Below are positions 53,264 to 64,000 of a DNA stretch of 64,000 bases, piece by piece. Source of the DNA: Spirochaetota bacterium (lineage in GTDB: Bacteria; Spirochaetota; B62-G9; DRHN01); the NCBI GenBank assembly GCA_016934265.1, contig JAFGTF010000080.1, positions 1-64,000 on the forward strand, written 5' to 3'. Each line of letters starts with the position of its first letter. Position 1 is the first letter of the stretch. The position numbers were made by a program, and so were the translations under genes. The notes beneath the pieces were generated by a model. The model was given only the letters and a program-made list of their open reading frames with translations. It was not told the DNA's origin and searched no databases.

Positions 53264-54451
53264 ATGGATGGCCTCCTGATGTCGATCAAACAGCTGAGAG
53301 CCTGCAGAGGTTCGATTGTGGGTTGCTGCGGCATCCTCATAATACTCATTTCCTGCTTCAGTTTCGCGTACAGCGGCCAGAAAGATAAAAAAAATCCAAT
53401 TGATCCGGTGACAAACAGGAACAAACCATGGCGAATCGGTTATTATGAGGGGGGGCCCTACGCAAACTACGTCGCACACCTCAGGGCGGTTGTTGCAGGT
53501 TTACAGAAAATCGGTTGGCTTAATGATTTCACAGTTCCGGATAAATGGGCGCCGGAAGATGCGAAATCGGTTTGGGATTTTTTATGCGCAGAGGGGGGCG
53601 GTAAGTATATCGAGTTCGTGCAAGACGCATTCTGGTCGGCTGATTGGGACAATGAACACAGAGAGAAAACCCGGTCCTCCGCTCTCATACGGCTGCGTGA
53701 AAAGGGCGACATCGATCTCATTCTCGCGATGGGAACATGGGCGGGCCAGGACTTGGCCTGTAATGAGCACGCGGTACCGACCATAGTTCTCTCGACAAGC
53801 GACCCGATAGGCGCCGGCATTATAAAATCCGCCGAAGAGTCGGGGTATCGACACGTTCATGCGCGTGTCGATGAGGACAAGTATAAACGGCAGATCCGTT
53901 TATATTACGACATCTTCAGCTTCGCTTCTCTTGGAGTCGTGTATGAAAACAGCCCGGAGGGCCGGCTTTATTCAAATATTCCGGATCTTCAGGAAATGGC
54001 TGCGGAACTCGATTTCGAGCTTGTCGAGCGGCACGTCCCCGATATCGGGTTATCGGACGAGGAATGTGTACAGATGGTGAAAGCGGCGTATAAGGAGCTT
54101 GCCGAGATGGTGGACGTACAATGGATAGGCGCACACAGGGGAGAAAGTCCCCAGTACCTGCCGCAGACACTGCAGCCTTTGCTGGATCGCGGCATCCCGA
54201 CCTGGGCAGCCGAGGGGGCTGAGTGTGTCAAAAACGGCGCGCTGATGAGTACATCCCGTATGAACCTATCAGATGTAGGGGTATGGACCGCCGGTATTAT
54301 TGCCCAGGTCCTGCGGGGCACAGCGCCCGGCGACCTATCACAGTTCTTTCGGCACCCGGACGCCATCGCCATCAATATGACTACGGCGAGAAAAATCGGC
54401 TATGTTCCCCCGCCCGGGATATTGGAAATAGCAGATGAGATCTACGAATAA
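53264..54451 (+). CDS. ABC_sub_bind (PF04392-type) substrate-binding protein
   Basis: WRIGYYEGGPYANY, AMGTWAGQDLA, VPTIVLSTSDPIGAGI, MTTARKIGYVPPPGILEIADEIYE. Confidence 0.8.
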   Translation: MDGLLMSIKQLRACRGSIVGCCGILIILISCFSFAYSGQKDKKNPIDPVTNRNKPWRIGYYEGGPYANYVAHLRAVVAGLQKIGWLNDFTVPDKWAPEDAKSVWDFLCAEGGGKYIEFVQDAFWSADWDNEHREKTRSSALIRLREKGDIDLILAMGTWAGQDLACNEHAVPTIVLSTSDPIGAGIIKSAEESGYRHVHARVDEDKYKRQIRLYYDIFSFASLGVVYENSPEGRLYSNIPDLQEMAAELDFELVERHVPDIGLSDEECVQMVKAAYKELAEMVDVQWIGAHRGESPQYLPQTLQPLLDRGIPTWAAEGAECVKNGALMSTSRMNLSDVGVWTAGIIAQVLRGTAPGDLSQFFRHPDAIAINMTTARKIGYVPPPGILEIADEIYE

Positions 54452-55511
54452 AACCCGCAATTCTTCTGAAAGAGCTTTACCAAACGTAAAAAGCACAATA
54501 ATAATTATTTCCGTAACATTCGTCATTATACTGCTGTTCTGGCTTCTGGACGGCGCCGTCCATTATTTCTTCTACGGCTCATACGTCCGTTTCCTTTTAT
54601 TCCAACGGCCGGAATCCTTATCTAATGCGATGTTCCGAAACGCGTCAGGCTACTCGCTCATGATACGGGGGATGTTCTCCATAATGATGCTCACGGCATG
54701 TTTCCTGCTGACACTGTTTGTTGCCAAGCAGAAACGAACCGAGCTGACGCTGCGAAACAGCGAAGCCCAGATACGAAAGATGAACGAGCAGCTGGAGGTC
54801 CGAATACAAGCTCGAACAAAGGACCTCGAGGAGTTCGCATATATCGTGTCTCACGACCTGAAAGCGCCCTTGCGTGGTATCGGGCAGCTCACCGACTGGC
54901 TCGCCCAGGACTATAAGAAAAACCTCGACCCGCAAGGTCGGCAGATACTGGAGCAGCTGAAAGGAAGGGCGATCCATATGGACCGGCTCATCAACAGCAT
55001 TCTTCATTATTCTCGCATAGGTCGTGTTAATGAGAAGCCGACACTTGTTGATCTGGATACCATCGTGCATGATGTCATCAAGAGCCTTCCGGTGCACGAA
55101 GGTGTAACCATTACCGTTGAAAAAAAATTGCCTTTCGTGCAAGGCAGCGGCATTCGTCTCTCCGAAGTGTTTCAGAACCTGATTGAAAATGCAATCAAGC
55201 ATCGTGATAATCAATGCAGTGAAATTCGCGTCTTCTATGAGGATGAGCCCGATCAGTGGCGCTTCAGTGTTTCGGACAACGGTCCCGGAATCGATCCTAA
55301 ATATCATGAAAAAATATTTATGGTATTCGAGACCATCGAATCAACTGAGAGCGGAAGTACGGGAATCGGACTCGCGATTGTAAAAAAATCAATCGAGATG
55401 TACGGCGGGAAGGTCGGAGTAAATTCCCAAAAGGGTAAAGGGTGTACATTCTGGTTCACCTTGCCGAAAGGAAAGACGGATGAGGACAAAAAGACCGATT
55501 CTTCTCGTTGA
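54435..55511 (+). CDS. Membrane sensor histidine kinase
   Basis: Two TM; EEFAYIVSHDLKAPLRGI H-box; NLIENAIKHRDNQ N-box; DNGPGIDP; GSTGIGLAIVKKSIEMYGGKVGVNSQKGKGCTFWFTLP. Confidence 0.95.
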   Translation: MRSTNKTRNSSERALPNVKSTIIIISVTFVIILLFWLLDGAVHYFFYGSYVRFLLFQRPESLSNAMFRNASGYSLMIRGMFSIMMLTACFLLTLFVAKQKRTELTLRNSEAQIRKMNEQLEVRIQARTKDLEEFAYIVSHDLKAPLRGIGQLTDWLAQDYKKNLDPQGRQILEQLKGRAIHMDRLINSILHYSRIGRVNEKPTLVDLDTIVHDVIKSLPVHEGVTITVEKKLPFVQGSGIRLSEVFQNLIENAIKHRDNQCSEIRVFYEDEPDQWRFSVSDNGPGIDPKYHEKIFMVFETIESTESGSTGIGLAIVKKSIEMYGGKVGVNSQKGKGCTFWFTLPKGKTDEDKKTDSSR

Positions 55512-55902
55512 AGACGACGGTGTGGATGCGATCACCGTCAGTCGTGCACTGAAAGAGATTCATGTGACGAACAAGCTTGTGCATACGGCAAACGGTGAGG
55601 AGGCGATCGAGTACCTAACAAATACGAATAACATCCTCCCGGCGATTATTCTGCTCGACTTGCGAATGCCCAAAATGAATGGAATCGAGTTTCTCAGTCT
55701 GCGGAAAGAGGATCCCCGCATCAGCCTGATACCGGTTGTCGTGCTGACTACTTCCGATGAAGAAAAGGATAGAATAGACAGCTTCAGACTCGGCGTCGCC
55801 GGCTATATGGAAAAACCGGTCGACTACATACAGTTTGTCGAGGTTATTCGAACAATAAATCTTTACTGGACCCTGAGCGAGCTTCCCGAGCTCAACGATT
55901 GA
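55480..55902 (+). CDS. Single-domain response regulator (Rcp1-like receiver)
   Basis: PILLVEDDGVD, IILLDLRMPKMNGIEFL, PVVVLTTSDEEKD, GYMEKPVDY; overlaps the HK gene by 32 bp. Confidence 0.95.
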   Translation: MRTKRPILLVEDDGVDAITVSRALKEIHVTNKLVHTANGEEAIEYLTNTNNILPAIILLDLRMPKMNGIEFLSLRKEDPRISLIPVVVLTTSDEEKDRIDSFRLGVAGYMEKPVDYIQFVEVIRTINLYWTLSELPELND

Positions 55903-55948: not shown

Positions 55949-56491
55949 CTACAGCGCAACAGCGGTCATGACAAAATCGTGTCTTCCCACGAGGATGAAA
56001 TCGCTCACCGCGAAGCCCGACAGGACCGCAAGGGAGATAATCTCTTTTTTGGTGTACCGCTTTCGCGTACAGGGCTTGCGCTCGCCGGACCATACGAAAT
56101 GCAACAGCATATTCGGAAATCGAAAGAATACGAACGGGTGGATTTTATCTGCGAGAACGAGCCTGCCGAACGGCTTCAGCACCCGGTGTATCTCTTGCAG
56201 CAGTTCCGAGGCGTATCTGAAGCGGCGAAACGCGTCCGTGCAGGCCACGACGTCGAAACTGCCCCGTTTGCAAGGAAGAGACGCGGCGTTTGGCAGATCG
56301 GGCACCGTACCGGACCCCGGCGGCCCTTGCCCATCACGAACGGGGCGCGCCAACACGTCGATACCGGAAGATCTTCCGTTTCCGCCCTGTTCGATCATGG
56401 ATATCGTCCCGCCCGATCCGCATCCGACTCTGAGTATGGACCCGAAGAAGATCCTGTCGAGCCTTTTTTCGACCGCTGTATTCAGCTTCAT
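55949..56491 (-). CDS. Class I SAM-dependent methyltransferase
   Basis: ILRVGCGSGGTISMIEQGG; FDVVACTDAFRRFRYASELLQEIHRVLKPFGRLVLAD. Confidence 0.82.
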   Translation of the reverse strand: MKLNTAVEKRLDRIFFGSILRVGCGSGGTISMIEQGGNGRSSGIDVLARPVRDGQGPPGSGTVPDLPNAASLPCKRGSFDVVACTDAFRRFRYASELLQEIHRVLKPFGRLVLADKIHPFVFFRFPNMLLHFVWSGERKPCTRKRYTKKEIISLAVLSGFAVSDFILVGRHDFVMTAVAL

Positions 56492-56587
56492 CAAGCTCTC
56501 GCTCTCATCAAGCGCTCACCTTCATCAAGCGCTCACCTTCACCAAACACTCGCCTTCACCAAGCGCTCGCCTTCACCAAGCGCTCGC
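56486..56587. repeat. 6 x 17-bp tandem repeat (consensus CTTCACCAAGCGCTCGC) at the methyltransferase 5' end
   Basis: Units 56486, 56503, 56520, 56537, 56554, 56571; last two identical. Confidence 0.92.
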
Positions 56588-56922
56588 CCAGGCGACTTCG
56601 ATCACGCTTGCCGAACATCCTCCTCGAATACGGAACGCCTGTTTTTTCATTCAATATCTCCATACCTTACACGACGTATCCCGCCCCGAAATATTGCGTA
56701 TAACATACGTTCTTCTTGACGGCACCGCGGTCTCTTATAACATTATCAGGAGAGTAGATGCTGCGGTCTTCGACAGGGCGTATCACGGAAGCGGCTTCTC
56801 TTTTTCGCCGCGGCCGAATCGGACATCGGGGGACACGGTGGTCGCTACGTCTTTATTAATCGCCGCCGTCTATCTCCGGCCCGCCGTGTATCGTCCCGTA
56901 CGGAGCCCGGACTCAATCGCCT

Positions 56923-60747: not shown

Positions 60748-63618
60748 ATGAAACCGATCGCCGCGAAACTCCGCTTTGCCCTGTTCTGCGCAATCCTGCT
60801 CGTTTCCACATCATGTGCGACGCAAGCGAAGAAGGATAAGGCCCAGACGCCTGTTCTTTCACCGCCCACCTCTCTTGACCTGGACGCCGAGCTCCCGATC
60901 GACCCGGCGGTGAAACGGGGAACGCTTCCGAACGGCATCACCTACTATGTGCGGGAAAACGACACACCCCAAAATCGCGCCGAGCTCCGCCTCGTGGTGA
61001 ACGCCGGGTCTGTGCTGGAGGACGAAGACCAGCTCGGGCTCGCACACTTTATCGAGCACATGGCGTTCAACGGGACTGCCCACTTCGAGAAGCAAAAGAT
61101 CGTCGACTACCTCGAGTCGATCGGTATGCGGTTCGGTCCGGACCTCAACGCGTACACGACATTCGACGAGACGGTCTACATGCTACAGGTCCCGACCGAC
61201 GACATACAGATACTCAAGACCGCCGTGACAATCCTCGAGGAGTGGGCGCACCTCATGACGCTCGAAACGGAGGAGATAGACAAGGAACGCGGCGTGATCG
61301 TGGAGGAGTGGCGTCTCGGCAGGGACGCGGACGCGAGAATGAGGGAAACGCAGTACCCGCTTCTCTTTTTCGGTTCGAGATACGCCGAGCGCCTGCCTAT
61401 CGGAAAGATGGAGGTCATACGGAATTTCGATCCAGCGGTGCTGAAACGGTTCTACCGCGACTGGTACAGGCCGGACCTCATGGCGGTTGTCGCAGTCGGC
61501 GACTTCGACGCGAACGCCCTCGAAAAGATCATTTCGGACACGTTCTCACGGATACCCCCTCCGGAAAGTCCCAGGCAGCGCCCGGCCTACCCGGTGCCGG
61601 ATCATGACGAAACCCTGATCGCAGTCGCCACGGACACCGAGGCGACGGTGAGCAGCATAGGAATCGTCTCGAAGCGGGACACCGCCGAATTCCGTACGGT
61701 CCGAGACTACCGGCGGCTTCTTCTCGAAGCCCTGTGCTACCGTATGCTCGACGAGCGGCTGTGGGAGCGCTCCAAACAGCCGGACCCGCCCTACCTCGCC
61801 GCCTACTCGGGCGCCGGCCGGTACGTGCGGAGCAAAGAGTTCTCTATAGTCGGCGCCCGCGTGAACGACTCCGGAATCTTCCGCGGCTTTGAGGCGCTCT
61901 TCGAAGAAACGGAGAAGGTGCGGCGTTTCGGGTTCACCAAAAACGAGCTCGAGCGGCAGAAAAAAGAGATGCTGGCCTATATCGAGAGTGCGTACAAAGA
62001 ACGTGACAAAACAGAGTCCGATGCGTACGCTTCCGAGTATACGGGACACTACCTTGAAGGCGATCCCATTCCCGGTATCGAATACGAATACAAGCTGTAC
62101 AGGCGCTTCCTTCCCGAGGTCTCGCTTTTGGAGATAAACGAGCGCGTTCTGGGTCTTTTTTCCGACAGAAACAGGGTGCTTTTAGTAAACGCGCCCCGAA
62201 AGGCCGGCGTGAATGTCCCGGACAAAGGCGAGCTCTCGGAGCTTGCGCAAGGTGCCGCACAAATGACAGTGGAGCGCTATTCCGAGGACGAATTATCGGG
62301 GCCGCTCCTTCCTGAGCTCCCCGCCCCCGGAAGAATAGTCGAACAGCGGGAAATCGAAGAGCTCGGCCTTGTGGAATGGAAGCTGCAAAACGGCGTTCGT
62401 GTAATACTGAAACCGACCGATTTCAAGAACGACGAGGTACTGTTCAGTGCCTTCAGTCCCGGCGGAGAGTCTCTAGTTCCGGACAGCGACTATATCGCCG
62501 CAGCCACTGCGGCGGAGGTCGTCGAGGAGAGTGGAATCGGGTCGTACACGCTGCCGCAACTTTTGAAAACGCTTACAGGCTCCCTCGTCAGCGTCTCTCC
62601 CTGGACGAACGAGCTTTTTGAAGGGCTCGAGGGGTATTCGGCCCCCGCCGATATCGAGACCATGTTCCAGCTCGTCTATCTCTACTTCACCGGCCCCCGG
62701 CTCGACGAAACCGCTTTCGATACCGTGAAAAACCGGATAGAGGCTGACTTAAAAAACAGGGAGTCCGACCCGGAGCAGACGTTCTGGGATACGTTTAAAA
62801 GCCTGCTCGGCCAAAACCACTTCCGTTCCCGGCCGTGGACGCTTCAAACGGTTTCCGGGATGGATGCGGAAAAGTCGTTTCTGTTCTATACCGACCGGTT
62901 TTCCGAAGCATCGGATTTTACGTTCATTTTCGTGGGGAGCTTCGCTGTCGACGAAATGCGTCCTTTGGTCGAGCGCTACCTCGGCTCACTGCCCGCAGGC
63001 GGAAGGATCGAGGAATGGAAAGACCTTGGGATCGATCCTCCAGACGGGATCGTAAGAGAAGAGGTGACGAAGGGGATGGAACCGAAGAGTCTCGTCTCGG
63101 TAGTCTTCAACGGAGAAACGGACTGGACGTTGGAAAAGGCCTTTCTATTCAGCGCGCTCGAGGACCTGATCGAGATCCCCCTTCGGGAAACGATCCGGGA
63201 GGAGGAGGGCGGCGCATACAGCCTCTGGGTATATTCCAGCATTCAGAACCTTCCTGACGACGAGTACTATATCTACGTCGGCTTCGGATGCGACCCTGAC
63301 CGGGCGGAGGAGCTCACCGCGATACTGTTCTCGGAAATCGAAAAACTGAAAGAAAACGGCCCCCGAGAGACGGACATGCAAAAGACAAAGGAGATACTCA
63401 CGCGGGAGCGCGAGACGAACCTGAAGGAAAACGGCTTCTGGATCGGCGTACTCCAGACATACTACCTGTACGGTCTCGATCCCCGGCGGATACTGGAGTA
63501 TGATGAATTTGTACGGGATCTGGACGCAAAAACCCTTCATGAAGCCCTGCGGCGCTACCTCGATACCGGCCGCTACGTGCAGGTCACCCTCTATCCCGAG
63601 AGCCGGACGGAAGACTAG
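60748..63618 (+). CDS. M16-family (insulinase/PqqL-like) zinc peptidase, lipoprotein
   Basis: Lipobox LVSTSC; LAHFIEHMAFNGTAHF (HxxEH) and paired M16 domains. Confidence 0.94.
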   Translation: MKPIAAKLRFALFCAILLVSTSCATQAKKDKAQTPVLSPPTSLDLDAELPIDPAVKRGTLPNGITYYVRENDTPQNRAELRLVVNAGSVLEDEDQLGLAHFIEHMAFNGTAHFEKQKIVDYLESIGMRFGPDLNAYTTFDETVYMLQVPTDDIQILKTAVTILEEWAHLMTLETEEIDKERGVIVEEWRLGRDADARMRETQYPLLFFGSRYAERLPIGKMEVIRNFDPAVLKRFYRDWYRPDLMAVVAVGDFDANALEKIISDTFSRIPPPESPRQRPAYPVPDHDETLIAVATDTEATVSSIGIVSKRDTAEFRTVRDYRRLLLEALCYRMLDERLWERSKQPDPPYLAAYSGAGRYVRSKEFSIVGARVNDSGIFRGFEALFEETEKVRRFGFTKNELERQKKEMLAYIESAYKERDKTESDAYASEYTGHYLEGDPIPGIEYEYKLYRRFLPEVSLLEINERVLGLFSDRNRVLLVNAPRKAGVNVPDKGELSELAQGAAQMTVERYSEDELSGPLLPELPAPGRIVEQREIEELGLVEWKLQNGVRVILKPTDFKNDEVLFSAFSPGGESLVPDSDYIAAATAAEVVEESGIGSYTLPQLLKTLTGSLVSVSPWTNELFEGLEGYSAPADIETMFQLVYLYFTGPRLDETAFDTVKNRIEADLKNRESDPEQTFWDTFKSLLGQNHFRSRPWTLQTVSGMDAEKSFLFYTDRFSEASDFTFIFVGSFAVDEMRPLVERYLGSLPAGGRIEEWKDLGIDPPDGIVREEVTKGMEPKSLVSVVFNGETDWTLEKAFLFSALEDLIEIPLRETIREEEGGAYSLWVYSSIQNLPDDEYYIYVGFGCDPDRAEELTAILFSEIEKLKENGPRETDMQKTKEILTRERETNLKENGFWIGVLQTYYLYGLDPRRILEYDEFVRDLDAKTLHEALRRYLDTGRYVQVTLYPESRTED

Positions 63619-64000
63619 GCGCCCTCCATGGCGGCGCCCTCCGTGGCGGCGCCCTCCGTGGCGGCGCTGGCGGTCTTCGAAGCCTGAAACATACCAATGT
63701 CATCGAGATAGAGAAACCGCTTGATCTTCCGTGAGGAGGTCTTTTCGAACTCCTCTCTCCGAACTAAAAAGTGCCGTATCTTCTTGTAGCCGGGGAGGGT
63801 TCTATTCACCGTATCGATCTCCTTCTTAACGAGAGGCCTCACGAAATCGTCGGTAAGTTCCTGTCCTTCGTACATCTCGGCGAGCATCTCGTAGTTCGGC
63901 ACGCACACGGCGACGACCTCTTCGGCTCTGCTTTTCTTGCTTTCTTTTTTTCCAAACACGAGTATCTCCCCGATTATCTTCGAGTCCCCGAACTTGATCT
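63615..64000 (-). CDS. AMP-binding/long-chain acyl-CoA synthetase-like protein, C-terminal part (continues past the window)
   Basis: Frame open to window end: IKFGDSKIIGEILVFGKKESKKSRAEEVVAVCVPNYEMLAEMYEG...LVKKEIDTVNRTLPGYKKIRHFLVRREEFEKTSSRKIKRFLY. Confidence 0.7.
   Translation of the reverse strand, partial: IKFGDSKIIGEILVFGKKESKKSRAEEVVAVCVPNYEMLAEMYEGQELTDDFVRPLVKKEIDTVNRTLPGYKKIRHFLVRREEFEKTSSRKIKRFLYLDDIGMFQASKTASAATEGAATEGAAMEGA
63619..63663. repeat. 3 x 15-bp tandem repeat coding an AATEG-type C-terminal tail
   Basis: gcgccctccatggcg / gcgccctccgtggcg / gcgccctccgtggcg. Confidence 0.9.

Follow-up and report, generated by a model that had tools for sequence, protein, structure and literature searches.

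The window, by which we mean the whole 64,000-nt stretch analyzed, carries on its minus strand a gene for a class I SAM-dependent methyltransferase, and the start of this gene lies in the last of six 17-bp tandem units (Table 1; units are numbered u1 to u6 in minus-strand order). The 180-aa product matched the Pfam family Methyltransf_11 with an E value of 8.4e-12 and 46 bits, against a gathering cutoff of 21.2. All matches to named NCBIfam methyltransferase families fell below cutoff, including the one to the equivalog family DVU_1556 (53.8 bits vs 155), and no DNA-methyltransferase family was matched. The AlphaFold model shows a class I core, with a pLDDT of 76 and poor confidence at residues 50-64, and the Foldseek matches of this model in the PDB were SAM methyltransferases. 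At codons ~42-60 (56312-56368), the sequence is Pro/Gly-rich; this stretch corresponds to helix B and strand 3 of relatives, and model confidence is low there, possibly reflecting decay.

Table 1. Features at the head of the methyltransferase gene, in window coordinates
Feature	Coordinates	Strand	Basis or remarks
Class I SAM-dependent methyltransferase, 180 aa	55949..56491	minus	ATG 56491 (TTG 56494 possible); stop TAG 55951-55949
Strong predicted RNA fold	56469..56587	minus	Units pair through GAGCGCUU; -44.5 kcal/mol, z -4.2
Tandem array, six 17-bp units	56486..56587	minus	TRF score, shuffles, unique in genome
Unit u6	56486-56502	minus	
Unit u1	56571-56587	minus	
Putative relay of overlapping stop/start sites	56488..56576	minus	Translation of every array start
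Upstream open frame, MEILNEKTGVPYSRRMFGKRDRSRLGERLVKASAW	56556..56663	minus	Stop TGA 56558-56556 overlaps the u2 start
Pre-array part of the upstream frame	56588-56663	minus	

TRF called the array at 56486-56588, with a period of 17, 6.1 copies, 86% matches and a score of 136, whereas none of 60 shuffles of the window that preserved dinucleotides scored above 61 (mean 36). The head-to-tail copies are thus above chance, as in a minisatellite or VNTR. This bears out the initial annotation, which had described six 17-bp units ending at the methyltransferase start and had placed the ATG (56491-56489) in unit 1; that numbering follows plus-strand order, and on the minus strand this is the last unit, u6. 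Read 5' to 3' on the minus strand, u1 and u2 are identical (GCGAGCGCTTGGTGAAG) and are followed by u3 (GCGAGTGTTTGGTGAAG), u4 (GTGAGCGCTTGATGAAG), u5 (GTGAGCGCTTGATGAGA) and u6 (GCGAGAGCTTGATGAAG); 11 of the 17 positions are invariant and 6 columns vary. When the 3.83 Mb assembly was searched with the degenerate unit, zero-mismatch matches occurred only within the array, and no further tandem copies were found elsewhere in the assembly. Looser matches did not outnumber those of a reversed control pattern, and we attributed them to chance. The genome-wide density of minisatellites was drawn from a 783 kb sample of the assembly, which contained seven distinct tandem arrays scoring about as high or higher, or ~9 per Mb. 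Therefore, as a minisatellite, the array is not exceptional in its own genome.

Other readings of the same DNA were also considered. Long plus-strand ORFs run across the array, but they have no family match and their codon scores lie below that of the methyltransferase frame. Rfam gave a single sub-threshold match, outside the array, which we took as chance, and a terminator-like site within the array agreed with chance expectation and is part of the repeat hairpin. The regular 17-bp spacing and the palindrome AGCGCT, present in 4 of the 6 units, would suit an element acting at the DNA level, such as iterons or operator repeats whose palindromic cores are read by a protein. However, u3 and u6 lack an intact palindrome, the genome holds no other copies, the array spans the start codon and so lies outside the promoter gap, and no rep or partition gene was found among the neighbours scanned. 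We give very little credence to such an element.

On the minus strand, each of the six units has a start codon with A as the next base (RTGA), which is GTGA in u1-u3 and ATGA in u4-u6. The resulting starts are GTG at 56576, 56559 and 56542, and ATG at 56525, 56508 and 56491. The initial annotation had pointed out that 17 is not a multiple of 3; indeed, because the period equals -1 modulo 3, a TGA overlaps the next start six codons after each start. In u4-u6, the preceding T and G make TGATG, and the stop therefore comes one codon earlier. The predicted micro-ORFs are 5-6 codons long and read, in order, VKASAW, VKASVW, VKVSA, MKVSA and MRARA, each closed by a TGA that overlaps the start of the following unit as GTGA or TGATG. 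The stop of the last one (TGA 56493-56491) shares one base, the A, with the methyltransferase ATG, and this geometry falls in the -4 to +3 nt range, relative to the gene start, that applies to a translationally coupled leader ORF. Overlaps of -4 nt (NTGA) and -1 nt (TGATG) are over-represented among spacings, and the range from -4 to +3 nt gives the most efficient coupling (PMC12548453; PMC6728339). Judged from its sequence, the array is a chain of putative micro-ORFs in the classic geometry of translational coupling. A literature search returned no tandem relay of micro-ORFs.

This overlap geometry need not have been selected, since it follows automatically from RTGA and a period of -1 modulo 3. 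Four RTGA motifs at 17-bp spacing occurred in the source genome only at the array, and the reversed control pattern did not occur in this genome. Five such motifs were present in 8 of the 393 genomes of the phylum, vs 5 for the reversed control, which is no clear enrichment. Given the automatic geometry and these counts, the data do not establish selection on the relay. In two of the eight array-bearing genomes, the source genome and G334, the start in the last unit opens into a long ORF.

It had been proposed in the initial annotation that changes in copy number would move upstream starts between frames and alter the leader, which would suit phase-variable expression. A contingency locus of this kind, switching the methyltransferase frame through its copy number, would be in line with a period not divisible by 3 and with an array at the gene start, and phase-variable DNA methyltransferases are well known (PMC2667262). 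Frame accounting for arrays of 2 to 6 units, with units removed from the 5' side, contradicts frame switching. The upstream frame runs into a stop in unit 2 in every case, so no upstream start reaches the gene, and the only starts in the methyltransferase frame are ATG 56491 and TTG 56494, this frame being open only 24 nt upstream. The start of any unit is always closed in the next one, because RTGA is kept in all units. What survives of the proposal is that copy number can change the length of the leader and the number of putative coupled steps, while the gene frame stays the same. Like phase-variable simple sequence repeat loci, the array consists of tandem copies of a unit whose length is not divisible by 3 and lies where a gene begins, in its 5' coding region or before it; unlike them, its units are long and diverged and each contains a stop, and over the range of 2-6 units a change in unit number leaves the gene in the same reading frame. 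The divergence of the units (86% matches) would presumably slow slippage, and the Methyltransf_11 domain comes without a DNA-methyltransferase family match. Phase variation by frame switching is thus, in our opinion, very unlikely.

The description of each unit as a mini Shine-Dalgarno (SD) sequence plus a start codon was correct in part. All six units have the start codon, and AAGG precedes the starts of u2-u5, but the motif is degenerate (GAGAGCGAG) before the methyltransferase ATG and absent before u1. Predicted pairing with the anti-SD of the 16S tail was strongest at u4 and u5 (-9.3 and -8.7 kcal/mol), compared with -5.3 kcal/mol at the methyltransferase ATG, making it plausible that ribosomes enter just upstream and then reinitiate. 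The strong predicted fold over the array is expected, since the repeats carry the palindromic AGCGCT core.

These features raise the question of whether the units have been kept by selection as a copy-number rheostat, each providing a further entry site for ribosomes or a further attenuating step so that their number sets the translation of the methyltransferase. RTG and TGA are kept in 6 of 6 units despite the variable columns, the strongest predicted SD pairing lies immediately upstream of the gene, and in E. coli an upstream short ORF can boost its target gene as much as 20-fold (PMC13255528). However, the retention of RTGA in six copies is weak evidence, and we observed no conservation in relatives; selection of this type seems improbable to us. 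Quite improbable, too, is that five termination-reinitiation micro-ORFs form a working relay whose number sets the rate of methyltransferase translation, as a stop/start rheostat and not a frame switch.

Counted from ATG 56491, 19 residues precede motif I, whereas the median in relatives is 51.5 and the minimum 29. The methyltransferase is therefore N-terminally short, shorter than all relatives measured. No ortholog of the locus was recognised in same-family genomes and no shared locus in relatives; the adjoining MGMT gene has <50% identity in same-family genomes. The short N-terminus and the lack of a recognised ortholog would both be expected if a neutral minisatellite stands before, or disrupts, a decaying gene, in which case the N-terminus would have been lost, the protein would be useless and the relay would be a functionless by-product. 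The automatic geometry of the relay fits this too, as does a model without confident helix B or strand 3, in which residues 45-78 are coil and residues 50-55 and 60-64 have pLDDT <50. On the other hand, 180 codons are still open, the codon score is coding-like only in the methyltransferase's own frame, and homology is retained at the C-terminus. Such decay is unlikely in our estimation.

We then looked at the frame upstream of the array as a candidate for the missing N-terminus. The frame from ATG 56663 (MEILNEKTGVPYSRRMFGKRDRSRLGERL) had the best codon score among the three frames; this score was equalled or exceeded by 2.3% of off-frame segments, and 8.2% of true segments score as low. Across a single unit, it is in register with the methyltransferase body, giving ~48 residues before motif I, as in relatives. 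It also resembles the N-terminus of L010/L011 (EK..V.YS...FGK), and in the single best comparison, with L010, the match was equalled or beaten by 1 of 500 shuffles. Once corrected over all relatives, the score was reached by 83 of 300 shuffles, and we rejected this homology as significant, keeping it as suggestive. These observations suggest that the upstream frame is a candidate former N-terminus of the methyltransferase, and we infer that the array likely arose inside the methyltransferase coding region.

A second array in the phylum has a similar layout. In G334, six 17-bp GTGA units (GGTAGTGAGAGCACCAG) stand between an OmpA-like ORF, named by eye, and an Omp85/POTRA gene (L152 1497-1598). 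As at the methyltransferase, there are six 17-bp units with an RTGA relay, here of putative VRAPG micro-ORFs, and the last start opens into a long ORF (481 aa). In contrast to the methyltransferase array, the unit and the gene are unrelated, the units are 98% identical, and the Omp85/POTRA gene has, in addition, an SD and a GTG start of its own immediately after the array. G292 (L168), the sister species of G334, has one unit at the corresponding place, with flanks 85-90% identical. Since G334 has six units and G292 one, 17-bp units at the head of a gene expand in a lineage-specific manner in the phylum. Other 17-bp RTGA arrays in the phylum (L150, L151, L153-L156) have a last start that does not lead into a long ORF.

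Taken together, the reading that we hold to be probable, if only just, is a lineage-specific minisatellite that arose by duplication of 17 bp in the 5' coding region of the methyltransferase and now forms a coupled micro-ORF relay. A 17-bp stretch would have been tandemly duplicated there, separating the old N-terminus from the catalytic body by an out-of-frame break and leaving the methyltransferase start within the last unit. The duplicated piece would have held a start codon followed by A, turning every junction into an overlapping stop/start (GTGA or TGATG). Ribosomes may enter at the upstream start or at the better SD sites of units 4-5, translate the 5-6-codon micro-ORFs and reach the methyltransferase ATG by termination-reinitiation. 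A change in copy number would then shift translation efficiency gradually, with no frame switch. In favor of the duplication and coupling account, we count the junction overlaps, the short N-terminus, the register, codon score and L010 match of the upstream frame, the SD sites at u4/u5, the G334/G292 pair and the minisatellite density. Against it, we count the corrected N-terminal test, the lack of a recognised relative that shows this locus in the single-copy state, the automatic geometry, the 8 vs 5 genomes and the minus-strand sequence upstream of 56663, in which we found no promoter-like site.

Several known systems share parts of this architecture. Mycobacterial interspersed repetitive units (MIRUs) measure several tens of bp, against 17 bp for the unit described here. 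By geometry alone the array is like MIRUs in that the ORF of every unit overlaps the next start as GTGA or TGATG; it differs in occupying a single locus of its own genome, without being interspersed, and in having originated, as we propose, by tandem duplication and not by insertion. In MIRUs, the repeat unit contains a small ORF, and a -4 nt overlap at the start codon of the gene that follows couples the two (PMC12548453). Similarly, in E. coli the third leader ORF of iraD ends at a stop that overlaps the start of the gene (PMC5574718). The array shares this arrangement, but has five putative micro-ORFs in tandem and no known regulator.

Overall, the array belongs to a known kind of minisatellite and is mostly ordinary, with an unusual position and a testable architecture. 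Most of the interest rests on the putative translation of the relay. If translated, it would provide a natural construct for measuring the passage of ribosomes through successive stop/start overlaps, and would bear on the unsettled mechanism of translational coupling. A general rule may also apply: a minisatellite with a period of -1 modulo 3 and a start codon followed by A would give a chain of potentially coupled micro-ORFs. By this rule, such an expansion at the head of a gene might be tolerated and not silencing.

Some further repeats and neighboring genes were observed. At the start of a 287-aa open frame, L190 (7061-7114) has a 16-bp repeat of 3.4 copies, with no stop/start relay. A 51-bp repeat of 7.5 copies occupies L174 1-373, from the end of contig C73, and A/G-rich nested repeats of the AAGGTTCAAGGTAAAAGG type lie at L179 7805-7999 and 8979-9031 in the source genome. 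Within the window, a protein of the ABC_sub_bind family (PF04392), a sensor kinase and a single-domain response regulator are encoded in a row at 53264-55902, with overlapping gene ends. Further along, a 15-bp repeat (GGCGCCCTCCGTGGC, 3.3 copies, 97%) at 63618-63667 directly follows the stop of an M16-like peptidase ORF (60748-63618).
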